Assembly (NCBI RefSeq): GCF_000003605.2
Contig: NW_003116950.1
Location: forward strand, 143,821 to 179,004
From: Saccoglossus kowalevskii
Taxonomy: Eukaryota > Hemichordata > Enteropneusta > Harrimaniidae
Direction of reading: 5' to 3'
DNA length: 35,184 nt
In this document: piece after piece, positions 5,146-34,858 of the stretch
How positions within the stretch are numbered: the stretch's first letter is position 1
How the letters are laid out: each line of letters begins with the position of its first letter
Notes under the pieces: generated by a model
The model's database searches: none
Seen by the model: only the letters and a program-made list of their open reading frames with translations
Told to the model about the DNA's origin: nothing
Program-made: the position numbers and the translations under genes

Positions 5146-5835
5146 TAATGAATAGAAATAATGTAAGTTAAAATGTTACTATGGTACCCGTTTATTGTGT
5201 TGCTTGGAAAATTAGCAGTATTACTGATGTTACAGGAAAAAAGACAAAATAACCTCGTACAAAATTAATGTAAATGTACATACTGATGCAAAATAATCAA
5301 TTACAGTGCATGTACTTTAGTATCTGCATGTAATTTATGATAATCACAGAGTCCAAATAATTAAAAATAATTTAATTTATTGAACAGGTTGATTTATCAC
5401 AGATAAATAATTCCTAAAAATACTTTTTTTCTAGTATTGAAGAAATATTTAGACCAGTATAATATGTATTTTAGAGGAACGCGTTTGTACACAACTCAAC
5501 ACAGCATACAGAAAATATTATTTTGGCAGATATCAAATTGGTTGGTTCTATTTTTCGATGCACGCTACTTATTGATTCGCAATGGATACGATTAGTAAGT
5601 ATTTTGATAACGACTTACCAGTATATTGTAAAACAGCGGCGGTGACAACAACATCAAAAGAACTCCATGAAAACAAAAATAAAAAATACTTGGGCAACAA
5701 AAAGACAATAACAGCAACAGTAACGAAATTGTGATTATGAACATTTACAATGGCATACCGGTAAGCTATAACGACAACTTCCCATTACCAAATAACTTTA
5801 ATGGACGCTCTCCACTACATGTAAATTACAGATAG
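5146..5835 (+). repeat. Direct repeat R, copy a (upstream of copy 1 exon 1)
   Basis: Aligns in the same orientation with 7382-8020. Shared blocks include tttattgtgtt, aaataattaaaaataattt, acacaactcaacacagcat, ttggttctatttttcgatg and acagcggcggtgacaac. It contains about 80 bp (around 5290-5370) missing from copy b. The identity of the element is unknown and no coding capacity is seen. Confidence 0.75.
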
Positions 5836-6684: not shown

Positions 6685-9600
6685 ATGGATGCATCTGTAC
6701 CATTAGAATATAAAGAAGAGTTTTGTCCAGACAGTTACCTCAAACTCTATTATCCACGTATAGAAAATACCACTGGTGTGTCACCATCCAATATTTTTTT
6801 ACTGGATACTCTGCATAATATTTTCAATAACGGTAAGTACATAATTTAGATAATGGTTTATGCATGCTATATATTTGGATACACGTACAGACAGAAGTGA
6901 CATCATTTTCATATTGTAATATAAGGCTCGTTTTATTCAATACTTACATAACGTGACTTATATCTCTAATACTTTTATTGATATTGTTAACAAACAGCCT
7001 CGACAATATGAACATCTGGCAAAACATGCCAAGTGTAGCCATCTTTATTTCATTTCAGGTGCGTATAAAATAATGTATACAATACATTATGATAAAACCG
7101 ATCGCTTGTCGATGTTTTCTCAGACCCGAGTTTAAATCCTACTTGGTGACTTTGTGGAAGCCTTGTTCAAGACTCACAGATATTGGTGTTCCAGTTAACA
7201 CCGGGATATCACATTACATTGCCATAATGACATTATTGTAGGTAGATGAGCATGTCACGTTGCCACAAACATGCCATATAGTTACTGTCAGTATTCGCAC
7301 ATAATAAAATACACAGAAGACGACGGCGGCGACATTTAGTATCTGGAACTGTCGCCTGACACAACAATATTCAATAGAACATAAATGAATAGACGCAATG
7401 TAAATTTAAAATGCTGCTGTGGTAATCGTTTATTGTGTTATTCGGAAAATGAGCAGTATTACATAAAAAAAAAACTAAATAATCTCGTAAAAATATAAAT
7501 GTACATACTGAGACAAAATAATCAATTACTGTTTCCAAATAATTAAAAATAATTTAATTTATTGAACAGGTTAATTCATCTCTGGTAAATAATTGTATTA
7601 AAAATACTTTTTTCCCAGTATTTGGGGAAATTTTTAGACCATAGTAATAATGTATTTTAGAGCAACACGTTTGTACACAACTCAACACAGCATACAGAAT
7701 TAAAGAGGTTGGTTCTATTTTTCGATGAACGCTACTTAGTGATTCACACTGGATAGGATTAGTAAGTATTTCGATAACGACTTACCAGCATATTGCACAA
7801 CAGCGGCGGTGACAACGACATCAAAAGAACAACACCATAAAAACAATAAAAAAACAAAACAATAAAAATAACAACTCTGGCAAAAAACGACAATAACAAC
7901 AAAAATAACGAAATTGCAATTATGAATATTTACAATGGCATACCGGTAAGCTGTAACGACAACTCCCCATTACCAAATGACACTCCTGGATGCTCTCCAC
8001 TACATGTAAAACATAGATAGACGCCATTATTCGTATAACATCTCACAGTAATAAAAAGTTATGGAATCTAAATTTGTATTAGCTTATTTGTCTTTACATC
8101 GATTGCTTTATGATAGGTTTTGTTACATATTGTATTTTATTTAACACGACTTAGGTCTATAGTAAATACCACTCACGTTAAAATAAAAGTTTGTGTGAGT
8201 AAACAAGATATCATATCTACTGTCTCAACTCCCTAGCGCACAGTAACCAGTTTTCAGGGTTTTTTTTTATAAAAAAATATTGCAAAAGTCACATCTTTAC
8301 AAAGCGAGCGCAATAATACAATTTTTATAATTGAATAATTAAAAAAAAAACGTCGATCTCTGCGTCCACGTGTGTTGTAAAGGCAGATGGAGACTCATTA
8401 TCATTTCAAATATGCTTGGGATATTACCCAGGAAATCATGGAGGGTGAATTTAAACAACATGGCTAAACTAGAAAACTTTTCCACATTCTTATTAGAGGG
8501 TGTGTCTGGTAATCGTCTGATTGACATTGGTTCTGGGCCGTGCGTTTATCAATTCATCTCTGCGTGTACAAAGTTCAATGAAATTATTGCCGCTGATATA
8601 AGCAGTGGGAACCAAGAGGCAATAAGACGATGGATAAGTGAAGATTCTGGTGTTTTTGATTGGAAACCCTACGTTAAATATGTCTGTGAACTAGAAGGAC
8701 ATCAGTAAGTGATATACATTTATATTTATACTAGCCCTGCTAATTGTAATCTTACCGGTTGTGATAAAGAACGATGTTTTGACTTATCGAGCATGTGTTT
8801 TCATTTACGAGACCCATAAAATATCCCCATTCAGTTTTCGTTTTTCCATGGTTGGAAGGATTTACTACAGATTGATTGCCGTTAAATATGTAGTAGAGGT
8901 TGTTGCTATTGCAATTGCATAGCACATTTCTGAAGTAACATATTCTTTGAATCACACCAAGTTATATATTTTCAGAAAGCTTATTTTTCATACAATCTGA
9001 AAAAAAATAGAGAGTTGTTATTTTCATAGAAACCGAAATAAACAACATAAATGATGTTCGTGGTACTGAGAGATACTATAAAAGGTTTGAATTCAATTTC
9101 CCAGTTCGTCTACTGTTGCATTTACTAGATTTTGACAACGTTGTTTTGAAACATGATACCCCGTGTCACAGTCCGCAAAGGGGGGAGTTGTGTAATATTT
9201 TCTAAAGTAAAAGTGGTAGACAAACTATCGTTGCCAGATTTCATTAACAGCTATCAGAGAATACCTATGCCAAAAATCATGGTCGTGGAGAAGCTGGGAA
9301 CTCTCTAGACTAACCCCAAATACCGATGTTTCCTTACGCGTGAAAAATCACAAAAAAACACTGTATTTCAGATTAACTCAAAATGTATTGCCCTCTCAAA
9401 CCATCGCTACAATTGTTTTCTCTAGTTGAATGCATGCTTCATATATGTGTGTGTTTATTTTTTGGTTTCTTTTTCTCTCCATACAACAGAAATGTTTCAG
9501 AACGAGAGAAGATAATTCGTAGATCAGTGAAAGATGTCATCCATTGTGACATTTCTAAAGAGTACCCAGTCGGTTCGAGTGTTTCCCCACTATACGATTT

Positions 9601-9904
9601 CGTGATTTCAGGTTTTTGCATTGAATGCATTGCTAAAAGCAAACAGCAATGGGTGCAATACTTGAAGAATGCGTCCAACCTTCTGAAGAGTGGTGGATGG
9701 TTCATACAACTTTGCCAGCCAGCTGATTTCTACGTAATTGGAGACGAGCGGTATACATGCTTCAACGTCGATGATGAATTCGTGACGCAAGCGATACGAG
9801 AAGCTGGGTTTTTGGTAGTGAAAAGTTTTCTCAAGAAATACACAGATGTGCGTAGTTATATGAACTACGATTTCACAATAGTGGTATTAGCAAAGAAAAC
9901 GTAA
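6685..9904 (+). CDS. NNMT/PNMT/INMT-family N-methyltransferase, copy 1 (three exons)
   Basis: Predicted cytosolic SAM-dependent N-methyltransferase of 256 residues (human NNMT is 264). Exons are 6685-6832, 8497-8704 and 9490-9904, with introns of 1664 and 785 bp; donors are GTAAGT, acceptors AG, phases 1 and 2. What shows the family: an N-terminal YLKLYY motif (residues 18-23), SAM motif I LIDIGSGPCVYQ (57-68), the ribose-binding acidic residue D83, YVCELEG before intron 2, CD at 138-139, and LLKSGGWF (183-190). The start is the first ATG after an upstream stretch that has no family similarity and gives the normal length. C194 and C209 sit where NNMT has Asp197 and Ser213, so I leave the substrate open. 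This is the most diverged of the four copies, has the longest introns and lacks the TATA/CRE promoter of the others. Family assignment is firm; substrate is unknown. Confidence 0.9.
7382..8020 (+). repeat. Direct repeat R, copy b (within intron 1 of copy 1)
   Basis: Same-strand copy of 5146-5835, diverged but alignable throughout. With copy a it brackets exon 1 and its upstream region, and it accounts for over a third of the 1664-bp intron. Confidence 0.75.
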
Positions 9905-10880: not shown

Positions 10881-11251
10881 TACCAACCAACAACATTATA
10901 ATTTGAGTAAACAACATTTATTCTCGTCAATTTTAGACGATATTTACGCTTAAATCCTACCCGGCTAGTATTATATTTATGTAAATAAAGCAGGTCAACA
11001 CTTAACAACAGTATTGTCGGAACTATTGATTTCATTTCGAGATAAATAATCACAATGCCGTGCAATTTGCATCACTCAAAACTGTGTTTTTTATACAGCC
11101 GGAACAGTGTTTGAAGAAGATATAACATTTATGTTTCATTTTGCATTTAAAATTTGAATAAACTTTAGGTCAGTTGCCAATACATTGCTGGACGTTTGTG
11201 GTTGGTTACATTTTGGTTAAGCACTAATTAAATTTATATTCGATAGTTAAA

Positions 11252-12350
11252 ACGTTATTACATTTGTGTAAGTTATTTTAGTTAATGAGTTATTACATCT
11301 GTGTAAGTTATTTTAGTTATTAAGTTATTACATTTGTGTAAGTTATTTTAGTTAATAAGTTATTACATTTGTGTAAGTTATTTTAGTTAATATGTTAATA
11401 AATTTGTGTAAGTTATTTTAGTTAATAAGTTATTACATCTGTGTAAGTTATTTTAGTTATTAATTTATTACATTTGTGCAAGTTATTTGTATTAGTTAAT
11501 AAGTTATTACNNNNNNNNNNNNNNNNNNNNNNNNNNNNNNNNNNNNNNNNNNNNNNNNNNNNNNNNNNNNNNNNNNNNNNNNNNNNNNNNNNNNNNNNNN
11601 NNNNNNNNNNNNNNNNNNNNNNNNNNNNNNNNNNNNNNNNNNNNNNNNNNNNNNNNNNNNNNNNNNNNNNNNNNNNNNNNNNNNNNNNNNNNNNNNNNNN
11701 NNNNNNNNNNNNNNNNNNNNNNNNNNNNNNNNNNNNNNNNNNNNNNNNNNNNNNNNNNNNNNNNNNNNNNNNNNNNNNNNNNNNNNNNNNNNNNNNNNNN
11801 NNNNNNNNNNNNNNNNNNNNNNNNNNNNNNNNNNNNNNNCTGTGTAAGTTATTTTAGTTATTAATTTATTACATTTGTGTAAGTTATTTGTATTAGTTAA
11901 TAAGTTATTACATTTGTGTAAGTTATTTTAGTTATTAAGTTATTACATCTGTGTAAGTTATTTTAGTTATTAATTTATTACATTTGTGTAAGTTATTTGT
12001 ATTAGTTAATAAGTTATTACATTTGTGTAAGTTATTTGTATTAGTTAATAAGTTATTACATTTGTGTAAGTTATTTTAGTTAATAATTTATTACATTTGT
12101 GTAAGTTATTTTAGTTATTAAGTTATTACATCTGTGTAAGTTATTTTAGTTATTAAGTTATTACATTTGTGTAAGTTATTTTAGTTATTAAGTTATTACA
12201 TCTGTGTAAGTTATTTTAGTTATTAATTTATTACATTTGTGTAAGTTATTTGTATTAGTTAATAAGTTATTACATTTGTGTAAGTTATTTGTATTAGTTA
12301 ATAAGTTATTACATTTGTGTAAGTTATTTTAGTTAATAATTTATTACATG
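11252..12350 (+). repeat. 35/38-bp minisatellite, interrupted by an assembly gap
   Basis: The basic unit is gttattacatttgtgtaag followed by ttattttagttaataa, 35 bp; a 38-bp variant has ttatttgtattagttaa. Seven units are visible before the gap and 14 after it. TTACATCTG and TTACATTTG units and 35/38-bp forms recur in a patterned order, suggesting higher-order repeats. The array ends in ttattacatgtgcagttagtg, which matches atattacacttgcagttagtg at 10611, so it grew within the neighbouring repeat family. Confidence 0.9.
11511..11839. other. Run of 329 N inside the minisatellite
   Basis: Unsequenced gap flanked on both sides by the same 35-bp repeat. The true array length is unknown, and any open frame drawn across it is an artefact. 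Confidence 0.99.
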
Positions 12351-19207: not shown

Positions 19208-20342
19208 TTATAGTTTTCTGGCTAAAACCACCATTGTGAATTCATAGTTCATATAGCTACGCGTAGAAGTGTGTTTTGTGAGATAACTTTTCACAACCAT
19301 GAAGCCAGCCTCCTTTAATGCCTTTAGTACAAACTCTTCATCAACCTTGAAACATGACATCCGGGTATCTCCAATCATGTAAAAATCAGCTGGCATGCAA
19401 AGTTGTACAAACCAACCACCACTCTTGAGTAGGTTTGACGCATTCTTCAAGTATTGTACCCATTGTTGTTGGCTGTTGACGATGCATTCAATGCAAAAAC
19501 CTGTCAGCACACAGTCGTAGAGCGGCGAATCACTCGAACCAACAGGATAATTTTTAGAAAAGTCACAATACGTGACGTTTTGTATTGCTTTACGCATTTG
19601 CTTTTCTCGGTCCGCTGTATTTCTGTTTGAATTGGAAAAAAAAAACTTAGATAAGTGACCTAAACTTTCAGAACCTACTCATAATGAACATTCAATCTGG
19701 ACACAGAACTCTGATTTGTCTAATTATCAAAACTAAACTCTGAAGTTTCATTACTATAATCGTTTTGTATGAATGTATGTTATAAAATAAAATATGTTCT
19801 ACTTACTGATGTCCTTCTAGTTCACACACATATTTCACGAACGATTTCCATTCAAAGGCACCATGATCTTCATTCACCCAGCGTTGTATAGCGTCTTGGT
19901 TTTCTTTGCTTATATCAGTCGCAACAATTTCATTAAACTTTGTACATGCCGAGATGAATTGATAAACGCATGGCCCAGCACCAATGTCAATGAGACGATT
20001 ACCAGATACTCCCACTAGTAAGTACGTAAAAAAAAGGTTTACATAATTATACTTCAAAATAAATTGATGTAGTTGTAAAAGTCACGATGTCTGTAAATCC
20101 GGCATGCTAGTTGAATACATCATACACTGAATATATATACTCGAAGCTACTTCGTCTATATACAGTACTATTAAATTATACTTACCAGAATTGAAAATGT
20201 CGTGCAGACTTTCCAGTAAAAATATATTGACCAGAGACTCGTTAGTAGATTTGTCTAAATCTGGGTAATAATGTTTAAGATAGGTGTCCAAGCCAAATGC
20301 AGTGGTGTCATCGTTACAGTCTAATGTTGCCGGTGATGACAT
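19208..20342 (-). CDS. NNMT/PNMT/INMT-family N-methyltransferase, copy 2 (three exons)
   Basis: Minus-strand gene of 259 residues. Exons in transcript order are 20342-20186, 20014-19807 and 19622-19208; introns are 171 and 184 bp. Visible family motifs are YLKHYY (residues 21-26), LIDIGAGPCVYQ (60-71), the acidic SAM residue in ATDIS, YVCELEG, YCDF, and LLKSGGWF. The start is in the context AACCATGT, shared with copies 3 and 4. The residues aligned with the nicotinamide-binding Asp and Ser of NNMT are C197 and C212. It is head to head with copy 3 across about 2.8 kb and tail to tail with copy 1. It is almost identical to copy 4 in exons 2 and 3 although the introns have diverged. No frame break is seen. 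Likely intact; the methyl acceptor is unknown. Confidence 0.9.
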
Positions 20343-23083: not shown

Positions 23084-23115
23084 ATCACGTCTTTTTGCGT
23101 GAGTGAGTATATATT
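23084..23115 (+). promoter_or_regulatory. Copy 3 core promoter: TATA box plus CRE-like half site
   Basis: TATATATT at 23108-23115 lies 54 nt before the ATG. A TCACGTC element sits at 23085-23091, where copies 2 and 4 have TGACGT. About 85 bp from here to the ATG aligns with the copy 2 promoter, including the leader ending AAAGAACC before the ATG. Confidence 0.6.
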
Positions 23116-23168
23116 AGGATTCATACAGCATTTTACTCACTTGTTCGCTTCCTTGTTCACAAAGAACC

Positions 23169-24282
23169 ATGTCAGCACCGGCAACATTAGACTGTTACGA
23201 GAGCGCCAAGGCATTTTGCTTGGACACCTATCTTAAAGAATATTACCCTGATTTAGACAAATCCACTGGAAAGGCACCGGTCAATAGATTTTTACTGGAC
23301 AGTCTGCACGACATTTTCAGTTCTTGTAAGTGTAATTAAACTTGGTGGCTTCGTGTATGCCATGAATTATATTTATTGTATGTTCTATTCAATAGTAAAT
23401 TCATATTAGGATATTCACATGGGCTTTGGACATACAGATAATCACCTCTGAAATCTAATCAACTGATTTTTTTACATTTTTACTAGAGGGGATATCTGGT
23501 AATCGTCTGATTGACATTGGTGCTGGGCCATGCGTTTATCAATTCATCTCAGCATGTACAAAGTTCAATAAAATTATTGCGACTGATATTGATAAAGAAA
23601 ACCAAGACGCTATACAACGCTGGGTGAATGAAGATGCTGGTGCCTTTGAATGGAAATCATACATGAAATATGTGTGTGAACTAGAAGGACATCAGTAAGT
23701 AGAACATATTTTATTTTATAATATACACGCATATGAACCGATTACAGTAGCACTTCAGATTGTACTTTTCATTACATGACAACCAGCCTTATCTGCCAAG
23801 ATTACAGGTATATATATTACGTGAGATTGGTCACTTATCTAAGGTAATTTTTTTCTATTTATAACAGAAATATAGTGGATCGAGAAAATAAATTGCGTAA
23901 AGCAATAACGGATGTCGCTTATTGCGACATAACTAAACAGTATCCAGTTGGTACGAGTGATTCGCCACGCTACGACTGTGTGCTGACAGGCTTTTGCATC
24001 GAAGCCGTTGCCAATAGCCGACAACAATGGGCACAATACGTGAAGAATGCGTCAAATCTTCTAAACAGTGGTGGATGGTTTGTACAAATTTCCATGCCAG
24101 CTGATTATTACGGGGTTGGAGACAAGCGGTTGCACTGTTTCAAGGTTGATGAGAAATTTCTGCTAAAGTCATTAAAGGATGCCGGACTCGTCGTTGAGAA
24201 AACGTATCACACTAAACACACTACTACGTGTAACTATATGAACTATGAATTCACAATGGTGATGATAGCTCGAAAGATTTAG
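23169..24282 (+). CDS. NNMT/PNMT/INMT-family N-methyltransferase, copy 3; stop codon formed at the exon 1-2 junction
   Basis: Exons are 23169-23325, 23487-23694 and 23868-24282, with introns of 161 and 173 bp. All exon lengths match copies 2 and 4. The protein has YLKEYY, LIDIGAGPCVYQ, YVCELEG, YCDI and LLNSGGWF, and ends TMVMIARKI. No frameshift or stop lies within any exon. However, the last base of exon 1 is T (G in the other copies) and exon 2 opens with AG, so the GTAAGT donor and its phase-1 acceptor make codon 53 a TAG. A weak donor at 23320 (GTTCTT) would restore the frame by dropping two codons. Residues aligned with NNMT Asp197 and Ser213 are S197 and C212. It is therefore either a very young pseudogene, an alternatively spliced gene, or a sequence error. 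It shares its core promoter with copies 2 and 4. Confidence 0.78.
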
Positions 24283-29183: not shown

Positions 29184-30886
29184 TTATAGTTTTCTTGCTA
29201 AAACCACCATTGTGAATTCATAGTTCATATAGCTACGCGTAGAAGTGTGTTTCGTGAGATAACTTTTCACAACCATGAAGCCAGCCTCCTTTAATGCCTT
29301 TAGTACAAACTCTTCATCAACCTTGAAACATGACATCCGGGTATCTCCAATCATGTAAAAATCAGCTGGCATGCAAAGTTGTACAAACCACCCACCACTC
29401 TTGAGTAGGTTCGACGCATTCTTCAAGTATTGTACCCATTGTTGTTGGCTGTTGATGATGCATTCAATGCAAAAACCTGTCAGCACACAGTCGTAGAGCG
29501 GCGAATCACTCGAACCAACTGGATATTTTTTGGAAAAGTCACAATACGTGACGTTTTGTATTGTTTTACGCATTTGCTTTTCTCGGTCCGCTGTATTTCT
29601 GTTTGAATGGAAAAAAAAACTTAGATAAGTGACATAAACTTTCAGAACCCACTCACAATATAATGCAATCTTGACACAGAATTGTTGTTGGGCTAATAAT
29701 CAACAATCTACAATCTGAAGAGTTATCACTACTGGATTTTTTTATGATGGGGGAAATTCTTCTCCTCTGGGGTTCTCCAACACGTGTCAGGGGGGGGGGA
29801 ATACACGTCTGTCTCTATATCACGTCTGCTTGAGGTACCGGACCGGGAAAGTCACTTAAACTTTACAGTCAAATAGACGCACACAACGAAATACGTTTCA
29901 ATAGCTAACCTTAAGAAGCCACATCGAGAACGCCTCGAGGCGAACTGCCTCGTCGGGGTCTCTGCCCAGCACTGACCAAGACTCTCTCGCCTCGTGGAAT
30001 TCTCTCTCTCTCTCTCTCTTTGACCAAGGGCTCAGACCTTTTATTACAAGTCAAAACTTAACCAATTACAAAACAGTTAAAAGACTCTAAGGCGTGGCCT
30101 TCACACATTCAACTTACACAGCCAATCAAACTAAGTACTGAACACGTCATATCTTTTGATTAATCGTTCACTATATTACTAACTGCAAATACCAACTGTC
30201 AGAAATAGCGGTCCGGATGACAACGGTTATATTAGTTCCAAATCAAGTTAAGTTCCGTCCAGGACCTCGCATGAGCTTAAATGATGACAGATATAACACA
30301 GCCATTCACTAGTAATCAGCTAAATAAGTCGGTCAACGGATACGCAAAAACTAATTCTTGACATTTGTATGAATATCTGTTATAAAATAAAATATGTTCT
30401 ACTTACTGATGTCCTTCTAGTTCACACACATATTTCACGAATGATTTCCATTCAAAGGCACCAGGATCTTCATTCACCCAGCGTTGTATAGCGTCTTGGT
30501 TATCTTTATCTATATCAGTCGCAACAATTTCATTGAACTTTGTACATGCCGAGATGAATTGATAAACGCATGGCCCAGCACCAATGTCAATGAGCCGATT
30601 GCCAGATACTCCCACTAGTAAGAATAAAAAAAAACATTGTGTTATTTGCACATGTAAATATGACATGTTAGCTAAATGTTGAATACATTATGTATTAAAT
30701 ATTTTGCATGGAATACACATAACACTTACCAGAATTGAAAATGTCATGTAGACTGTCAAGTAGAAATATATTGACCAGAGACTCGTCAGAGGATTTGTCT
30801 AAATCTGGGTAATAATGTTTAAGATAGGTGTCCAAACCAAATGCAGCGGTGTCATCGTTACAGTCTAATGTTGCCGGCGATGTCAT
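29184..30886 (-). CDS. NNMT/PNMT/INMT-family N-methyltransferase, copy 4 (three exons)
   Basis: Minus-strand gene of 259 residues. Exons in transcript order are 30886-30730, 30614-30407 and 29598-29184; introns are 115 and 808 bp. Motifs are as in copy 2: YLKHYY, LIDIGAGPCVYQ, an acidic residue in ATDID, YVCELEG, YCDF and LLKSGGWF; the last 80 or so residues are identical to copy 2. C197 and C212 replace the NNMT amide-binding Asp and Ser. Intron 2 is about 620 bp longer than that of copy 2 because of a probable solo LTR (29745-30363). The splice sites around it are intact, so the gene should still be functional. It is tail to tail with copy 3. Likely an active paralogue; substrate unknown. 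Confidence 0.9.
29745..30363 (-). mobile_element. Probable solo LTR in intron 2 of copy 4
   Basis: This 619-bp segment is absent from intron 2 of copy 2; removing it leaves 189 bp against 184 bp there. On the minus strand it starts TGTCAAG and ends CCATCA (TG...CA ends). It holds two inverted CCAAT boxes (30126-30122 and 30066-30062), then TAATAAAAGG as a TATA- or polyA-like element, and a GC-richer downstream part. No coding sequence or second LTR is seen. Flanking target duplications are not clear because both flanks are T-rich. Confidence 0.5.
29997..30021 (+). repeat. (TC)n microsatellite
   Basis: About 11 uninterrupted TC dinucleotides inside the probable solo LTR. Confidence 0.9.
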
Positions 30887-32143: not shown

Positions 32144-34858
32144 TAAACCATTGCCGGGACCAACATATTTATATAGTGACTGACACAGTTTAATATATCT
32201 GCTGGTCTTGGCTTGTCGACAAATAAAGTGCTTGTCGATTAGTTATATTTCACATCAGATGACCTCGATTACAGGAAGTGTTACAAGTTCATGTTGTCGA
32301 CTTCGTAACTTACCGGTTCCTAACAACAACGGAACCCTCAATCGTGCACTTTAGGCTGAGTGGCATCCGTATCTCTGACCCCACGTACCGTCATATAAGT
32401 ATATATGTATAAGTATAGACATGAGTGTAATGACTTGCATGTTTGATTCGTAGTAGAGATTCACTGACACGCACTCCCCAGTTGTCAAATCTAATCTAAA
32501 TGTGTAGACCTTTGGCTGCGGTCATTCTTAATGTCAGTGTTTCCAGACGTGTTCAGCAGGCACCGACATTGCTAAAATTATAAAAAATGACCATTGTAAA
32601 ATACAAAATATTGTGGTGATGGCAATACTAGTTTAACAATAACTGGGATTTGGTTGCGTCGATCAAAAATCTTCCGACCTGACCGACAGTGCGACGGGTT
32701 TCATCTGTTTTTACGCTAGATCAACTGTGACGCAGTATCATAAAATTGACAATGTGTAAGCATGTAACTGCGATGGAAACCGACGTGCACGTGACTCTCA
32801 TGCTAATTGTGTTTGTGTGATAAGCACGTTAGATGTGTTATACGGGAATTGTAAGCAGTTGATATTTTTGCAGAGCAGGATGTTTTATTTAAAAAAAAAA
32901 GTGATACTTACGTATCAAAGAGAATGCACACGTGTATGACAATGGTACATTCAGTTCATATTCTAGAATATAAATCCCCGGTGCAATGATACTATGTCTC
33001 AAATGAGTGAGAGTTCATTTAAAAAGAAAACCATTACACAGTTGAATTTAAATATACTGGTACACGCACAGTGTTAGTCTGGAAAATTCGACCATACTGT
33101 ATTTAAAACTGAATGATGGCAATATAACGAGAAAGGTCGTTGTAGGTGATGGAATATGCACGCAAGCGTAATGTTCTAAGATAAGTATGCGTTTGCGCCG
33201 TTCGGCTTCAAAGAGCCTACCGCTCCGAATATGCTAACAATAGCCCACATTTTCCCCGTAAACCGATACTCACAAACAATTGAATAGTACTGCTGTATGC
33301 AAAAGCGCAGTGTAATACTAGTAAGTATCACATTTCATTTCCATCGCCCTGACTATTATTGGATTAGTGTTGTACATATCTTACAGGTCGACACATTTAT
33401 TTAAACAAAACATAAATTATATTTCACTTCAGGACAATTAAATCTTATTTTCAAAGCTGCATAAGAAACTCAATATGCACATTACAAACATGTATACTTA
33501 TTTTTTAAAGGTTGTTGAAAGTTTGTAAGTAAAAAAGTATGCAGTCTGTTTTACATAATTTAGTATTAAGTCACACTGTGGAGATAAACACACGATGTAT
33601 GTATATAATACTTAACATATCACAACGGACAAGCAGTATATTCATTTCAATAATTCTGTACTCGATAAATTGAGTGATTCACACTGCTGAAACACTGTTG
33701 ACTGAAAGTAACATTTACTGAGTGTATTTCGCAGTTTTGTTAGCAAACAATGCATGTATGCTATTGAGTAATGTGAAACGTGTTATAATATATGAAATAA
33801 AACATTGCATACTTCAATATAAGTGTTGTTAGTTTATGAGAGAACGGGTGTGAGAGATGTATGTTAGGTGTTTGTCTGTTCGATATGATAAACTAAACAC
33901 ATGGTCATTCGGGCAACAACACGATTTGTTTTCTGCCCTCTGGCTATTGCTCATGCCCATAATATTGATGATGCCATCGCCTTCGACTGTGGTATCATCT
34001 ATATTATGCTCATAACCACCATCGTGATATTGCCCTCACAAATATGTGTTATTATTTAAATATTTAATAATAACAGCTGCCAACAACGCCGTTATTACAT
34101 CTTCGAAGGCAAACAACCGGTTCTTGTGAACAAATGCGATGACATGTATGGTGAAAGCGTTCCAATGCAAAACAGTTTTAATTCTCAAGATATCAAGTTT
34201 TCAACATGTGATCTTTTAAGGAAGAGATGCAGTTTACCTGACAGGTATTTTAATTAGTTAATTAGGAAACCAAGATGATCTCCTTTGTCCACAAAACTAT
34301 ATTTTTGAAAACTGTCTACCAGTTGTCAATTTTGCATGGCAGCAGCTCAAATTTCACTACTTCAAGTTTATGCATAAATTAACACCCAGGCTAGTTGTCT
34401 GTACGATTGTTGTAACACTGTTCAACCAAAAACAATGTCCCGACTGCGTTTTGAAGATAAACATAATCATTCATTTGTGAAAATTTCAAAACAAAAGGTC
34501 AAAGCGTCTAGGAGCTATTTTTTTTAAAGTTCTGGGATGTGCACTAAAAAGAAGCTGAGATAATTGCTAATTTGCATAACAATTCACTCAGTAAGAAGTT
34601 CGATAATACTCATAATTAAAATGGCTGTAGCAGTTCCAAATTTAAAAGTATTATCGTTTTGTTAAAAGTTAAATACAGTGCATATTATGAAGATCTCGTC
34701 ATTTCTTTTTTACCATGTTTCTTTTTGATTATTTATGTACAGCCTTGCTAAATCTTGCAAAGCATTCAAAAGAGAGAATGCTTGAACCTGTTATTTATAT
34801 TTTAAAATCGTTTTTTCGAGCATGTTTTCACAGTATTTAGCCAAGACTGTTTGGATAA
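32144..34858. other. Intergenic; contains one strong hairpin
   Basis: No gene, RNA gene or transposon domain recognised. The only notable structure is the inverted repeat at 33959-34007. Confidence 0.35.
33959..34007. repeat. Hairpin with 18-bp arms
   Basis: ATAATATTGATGATGCCA (33959-33976) pairs with 33990-34007 at 16 of 18 positions around a 13-nt loop. A GCCCTC hexamer flanks the structure on both sides as a direct repeat (near 33935 and 34033). It may be the core of a small palindromic transposon. Confidence 0.5.

Follow-up and report, generated by a model that had tools for sequence, protein, structure and literature searches.

A methyltransferase-type gene of Saccoglossus kowalevskii, which we call copy 3, carries an in-frame stop codon that exists only once exons 1 and 2 have been spliced together. 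We place a probability of about 0.6 on the reading that copy 3 is a recently lost gene, or a segregating null, derived from a fast-evolving duplicate of the NNMT/PNMT/TEMT type.

The DNA that we analysed (the window, 35,184 nucleotides) lies on a 405-kb contig in an assembly of 572 Mb and 4830 contigs. Four three-exon methyltransferase genes, copies 1-4, are clustered in it. They have in common a phase-1 intron 1, an exon 2 of 208 nt, and an exon 3 of 415 nt, and their exon 1 measures 148 or 157 nt. The genes are listed below, with a slash marking the exon junction inside the split codon.

6685..9904, plus strand: copy 1, intact; exons 6685-6832, 8497-8704, 9490-9904; split codon G/AG
19208..20342, minus strand: copy 2, intact; exons 20186-20342, 19807-20014, 19208-19622; split codon G/TG
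23169..24282, plus strand: copy 3, TAG at spliced codon 53; exons 23169-23325, 23487-23694, 23868-24282
29184..30886, minus strand: copy 4, intact; exons 30730-30886, 30407-30614, 29184-29598; split codon G/TG

These three-exon genes belong to the NNMT/PNMT/TEMT family (PF01234). The whole protein of copy 2 matches this profile over residues 7-258 with 207.2 bits (curated cut-off 25 bits), and exons 2 and 3 of copies 1-4, each scanned singly, score 74.0-87.8 bits, with 8 of 8 above the cut-off. Copy 2 also matches solved nicotinamide N-methyltransferases (E down to 2.9e-47); these enzymes (e.g. 2iip) belong to the same family, and the solved NNMTs shown in the comparison have a D before ALKSS at a place where copy 2 has a gap. 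In exon number, the one feature compared, copies 1-4 resemble human NNMT, which has three exons according to the available text of PMC8956669. Because the published phylogeny, as presented in the available text of PMC10244343, makes NNMT, INMT, and PNMT proper vertebrate genes, the window copies would best be called relatives, rather than nicotinamide N-methyltransferases proper. The NCBIfam equivalog GntF matched as well (72.3 and 81.8 bits; cut-off 60) and was set aside as a bacterial model cross-matching a relative. The genome search returned more distant relatives on contigs C763, C2792, and C805; one of these, at C805:392557-392868, is a distant exon-3 relative (26% identity) with one TAG inside the match. 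Further genome-contig and viral-contig collections gave no confirmed relatives (90 and 24 pattern matches, respectively), and Rfam and tRNA scans of the window gave no matches.

The features of copy 3 and its immediate upstream sequence are as follows.

23108..23116, plus strand: TATATATTA, TATA-like element; similar elements stand upstream of copies 2 and 4
23169..23325, plus strand: exon 1, 52 codons and one base, last base T; aligned with copies 2 and 4
23320..23325, plus strand: GTTCTT, candidate donor; its GT is in frame and precedes the normal donor by 6 nt; poor U1 match
23325, plus strand: T peculiar to copy 3, opening the split codon; the four other close copies have G
23326..23486, plus strand: intron 1, 161 nt; donor GTAAGT, acceptor ...TTTTTACTAG
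23487..23694, plus strand: exon 2; its initial AG completes TAG; contains RLIDIGAGP, which we take to be a SAM-binding segment
23868..24282, plus strand: exon 3, open up to its own terminal TAG (24280-24282)

Exon 1 of copy 3 ends in TTCAGTTCTT/GTAAGT, with T at 23325, and exon 2 opens with AG at 23487-23488, preceded by ...TTTTTACTAG. Joining T to AG makes codon 53 of the spliced sequence TAG, just as the original prediction had it. That prediction also held that exon 1 ends in G in copies 1, 2, and 4; we confirmed this and found the same base in a fifth close copy, which brings G to 4 of the 4 others. It further described copy 3 as otherwise open and family-like and its lesion as invisible in the genomic reading frames, and both statements held up: the remaining 258 codons of the 780-base coding sequence are open with the PF01234 match retained, and the unspliced frame runs into exon 2 as ...F-L-L-E-G-I-S-G, the stop being hidden because intron 1 also ends in G. 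On parsimony, it would be the exon-1 base that changed in copy 3, with AG, as in copy 1, retained. We found no further lesion in copy 3, and that the spliced TAG is alone is a point in favor of recent loss. With a TAG at codon 53 and introns of 161 and 173 nt still in place, copy 3 has the form of an unprocessed pseudogene. Like duplicated (unprocessed) pseudogenes with one nonsense lesion, it has kept its introns, stands beside intact paralogs, and bears one premature stop; unlike them, it has that stop split between two exons and unseen in genomic frames. No spare exon 1 was detected elsewhere in the window by tblastn or blastn (no match at E <0.01 outside the known exons).

The fifth close copy, copy 5, is intact and lies outside the window on contig C908 (10,179 bases; L018 4923-5975, minus strand). 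Its intron-1 acceptor is a TAGTAG doublet, which would allow one extra codon. If the second AG is used, the exon lengths match those of the window copies; the split codon is G/TT, or G/TA followed by GTT if the first AG is used. On the strand opposite copy 5, L018 2713-2860 matches no more than the promoter and the initial 86 nt of exon 1, and it resembles a dead fragment from the methyltransferase family. Contig C908 itself appears to be either misassembled or duplicated in inverted orientation, because two of its parts (L018 995-1446 and 7144-7595) match one window stretch (32162-33167) in opposite directions.

Codon 53 varies among the copies, with G or T contributed by exon 1 and AG, TG, or TT by exon 2, and only 1 of the 6 possible pairings, T with AG, gives a stop. 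Such an incompatibility between the halves of a split codon could allow exon exchange, by gene conversion or recombination, to silence or restore duplicates without a new mutation, and copy 3 may use the GT at 23320 as an escape; we regard this scenario as improbable. We rejected gene conversion of exon 2 as a source of the stop: in copy 3, 3 of the first 6 exon-2 bases depart from copies 2 and 4, and its silent differences from copy 2 (4 of 24 in exon 2, 10 of 35 in exon 3) are not clearly separated between the exons.

Splice-site strength was estimated from duplexes with the 5' end of U1. The copy 3 intron-1 donor (CTT/GTAAGT) retains all six intronic U1 pairs and gives -4.9 kcal/mol, compared with -8.6 to -8.8 kcal/mol for the intron-1 donors of copies 1, 2, and 4 (-8.6 for copies 2 and 4) and -5.1 for the intron-2 donor, a value shared by copies 1-4. 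The copy 3 donor is therefore weaker than those of its sisters, yet about equal to the intron-2 donors on which the family depends. We also scanned GT/GC donors in 23169-23486 against 8 AG acceptors in 23340-23600, with introns of at least 40 nt. The frame of copy 3 is kept by 25 of 190 donor–acceptor pairs, only 1 of which has a strong donor; this pair (acceptor 23553) leaves out 22 codons, among them the presumed SAM-binding segment, and the other frame-keeping pairs have poorer donors (-3.0 to +1.1). We reject rescue of copy 3 by other splice sites on these grounds, namely poorer donors or loss of the presumed SAM-binding segment. Because the normal donor is near intron-2 strength, GTTCTT is weak, and rescue with a strong donor loses that segment, the TAG would be expected in most copy-3 mRNA.

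The original prediction had offered GTTCTT at 23320 as a possible rescue donor, which would create an AAG junction and a protein two residues shorter. The frame would indeed be open (257 residues), copies 1, 2, and 4 lack the GT (codon 51 is AAT in them and AGT in copy 3), a point that the original prediction did not make, and with T at 23325 the old donor is left well below the strength that it has in copies 2 and 4. That few nonsense changes could land at the junction by chance also speaks for it. GTTCTT reaches only -1.2 kcal/mol, however, with a full GTAAGT about as strong as the intron-2 donors 6 nt away, and the sole in-frame alternative with a strong donor is the pair that deletes the presumed SAM-binding segment. 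Nor is the end of exon 1 unusually altered: copy 3 is unlike both copies 2 and 4 at 21 exon-1 positions, and 2 of these lie in the last 7 bases (p 0.24). We consider rescue through GTTCTT quite unlikely.

How much weight the position of the stop deserves can be put in numbers. Per window copy, 109-123 single-base changes would create a stop, 1-2 of them in a split codon. A nonsense change needs no special cause, and its place at the junction is a coincidence of 1-2%, picked after the fact. The split-codon position slightly favors accounts in which the junction itself matters, and as a point against our reading it gives the hypothesis of other splicing a little weight; we rest no conclusion on it, since it was the position that drew attention to the case.

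The protein of copy 3 has changed faster than those of its sisters. In pairwise relative-rate tests with copy 1 as the outgroup, which is distant and has a branch near saturation, copy 3 has 31-32 derived replacements, compared with 11 in copy 2 (p 0.0014), 11 in copy 4 (p 0.0020), and 14 in copy 5 (p 0.0080); at fourfold sites it is not faster (2-4 vs 5-8). The branch dN/dS of copy 3 is 0.69-0.78 under three topologies, against 0.23-0.24 elsewhere (p 0.0009-0.0022), and is not significantly below 1 (p 0.32-0.52). By exon, the values are 4.1, 0.74, and 0.57 (p 0.019, 0.24, and 0.03 vs other branches), and a fit with exon-specific branch lengths gives 0.76. By strict codon parsimony, copy 3 has 8 silent and 15 replacement codons and the stem leading to copies 2 and 4 has 4 and 3, a difference that is not significant (p 0.39). 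Before the stop arose, copy 3 was either relaxed or adapting.

The coding sequence has nonetheless kept its frame. Compared with copies 2 and 4, copy 3 shows 0 gap events in 780 coding bases, with 122 coding differences from copy 2. Noncoding sequence has 29 gaps in 1062 aligned bases against copy 2 and 36 in 929 against copy 4; the comparison with copy 2 counts 470 differences in those 1062 bases, in an alignment that is partly unreliable. Between copies, gap events number 0.06-0.11 per noncoding difference. A fully neutral copy-3 branch with the length obtained in the fit would be expected to carry 5.5-11 indels and about 5 stops (400 simulations); the probability of no indel under neutrality is 1.5e-5 at 0.10 indels per substitution and 0.004 at 0.05, and that of at most one stop is 0.043. 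The replacements are also mild, with a mean BLOSUM62 score of +0.55 for 31 copy-3-derived changes vs -0.41 for random nonsynonymous changes (p 0.0009). Exon 3 of copy 3 scores 87.8 Pfam bits (86.2, 85.8, and 74.0 in copies 2, 4, and 1), while simulated neutral controls, made by placing an equal number of random replacements (43) in copy 2 exon 3 without creating a stop, scored 21.7-48.8 bits in 10 of 10 cases. Exon 2 counts against our reading by a little, since at 80.0 bits copy 3 is narrowly the lowest of the four (82.7, 85.0, and 80.2 in copies 2, 4, and 1).

Because coding gaps are absent, stops are few, replacements are mild, and profile scores are retained, we conclude that the copy 3 protein was under selection for much of its branch. 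The stop probably arose late. At 0.10 indels per substitution, the gap-free frame limits the unconstrained part to less than about one-third of the branch (P 0.036 at 0.30), and at 0.05 to less than about two-thirds (P 0.024 at 0.67). An old pseudogene that had drifted neutrally since duplication would account for a dN/dS indistinguishable from 1, and that value, taken alone, would fit an older loss than the recent one we propose. Such a pseudogene would leave unexplained the missing coding gaps, the single stop where about 5 are expected, the conservative replacements, and an exon-3 family score not below those of the intact copies. Indels and stops in copy 3 do not keep pace with neutral divergence, and we reject an old neutral pseudogene as highly improbable.

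Neither is copy 3 a fully constrained gene suddenly dead, because its protein changed faster than its sisters'. Arithmetic on the fitted rates shows that if the whole replacement excess were drift after the loss, about two-thirds of the branch would be unconstrained, an account disfavored because the indels are missing. The young pseudogene of the original prediction is accordingly the best supported description as regards its one lesion, gap-free coding sequence, and retained profile, but it needs amendment in that copy 3 was not fully constrained before the loss, with a dN/dS about 3 times that of its sisters.

An isolated lesion in a gene that is otherwise open and fits its family could also mean that copy 3 is an intact gene and that the T at 23325 reflects a wrong base or consensus call, as the original prediction also allowed, or else a rare allele that the assembly happened to capture. 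The single 329-N gap in the window and the division of the assembly into 4830 contigs speak for this. Against it, the change is a substitution in non-homopolymer sequence and not an indel in a run, and the raised replacement rate sets copy 3 apart already. When the 572-Mb assembly was searched at the DNA level, copy 3 came back a single time, with no second version or allele of the locus; the other 8 matches, among the best candidates scored, are only 70-81% identical and were rejected as a second allele. We think an error or captured allele unlikely. For a segregating null, a parallel is found in the polymorphic pseudogenes surveyed in human (PMC11576641, in its available text), which like copy 3 have an otherwise intact coding sequence and one inactivating change; copy 3 is seen in one assembly.

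We propose the following course for the recent loss that we favor. Copy 3 would have arisen as a duplicate of the small-molecule methyltransferase type within a local cluster of four and evolved quickly, yet as a real protein during much of its history. A single substitution in the final base of exon 1 would then recently have silenced it. The pre-mRNA is presumably still spliced at GTAAGT/TAG, and translation would halt at codon 53, before the SAM-binding core, leaving a predicted 52-residue fragment. Premature stops more than 50-55 nt upstream of a final exon junction generally mark an mRNA for nonsense-mediated decay; because the exon 2–exon 3 junction lies 206 nt past the stop, the copy 3 mRNA would be expected to be such a target as well.

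The proximal promoter of copy 3 is still alignable with those of copies 2 and 4, which speaks for a recent loss. It would also suit a gene now acting through a peptide of 52 residues or through its RNA, perhaps as an unproductive decoy within the family; other gene families are known in which duplicates give rise to unproductive transcripts. Nothing in the sequence calls for such a role, though, and a Pfam scan of the 52-residue product of exon 1 gave no match at E 0.001. We give this idea hardly any credence.

The first 28 nt of intron 2 (23695-23722) are identical at 27 of 28 positions between copy 3 and copies 2 and 4, although what is left of the introns is strongly diverged. Intron 2 of copy 4 (29599-30406) is 808 nt long vs 173 in copy 3 and 184 in copy 2; its insert has a GA-repeat run, and parts of it recur in L018. 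The window also holds a long tandem array of 52-nt units in 19 copies (1769-2755), a second of 35-nt units interrupted by the 329-base N gap (11244-12349), and a dispersed repeat pair (5342-5835 and 7524-8020), one member of which lies within intron 1 of copy 1.

Among the literature matches listed, judged by their titles and the beginnings of their abstracts, none plainly describes this case. The stop of copy 3 most likely records an ordinary, recent loss of function in a duplicate that was evolving fast; all that sets it apart is that an intron divides the stop codon. Because the lesion appears only after splicing, copy 3 could pass as intact in gene prediction carried out one exon at a time. 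In an otherwise routine step for a duplicated gene family, copy 3 illustrates a duplicate changing fast under real but weak constraint before its loss.
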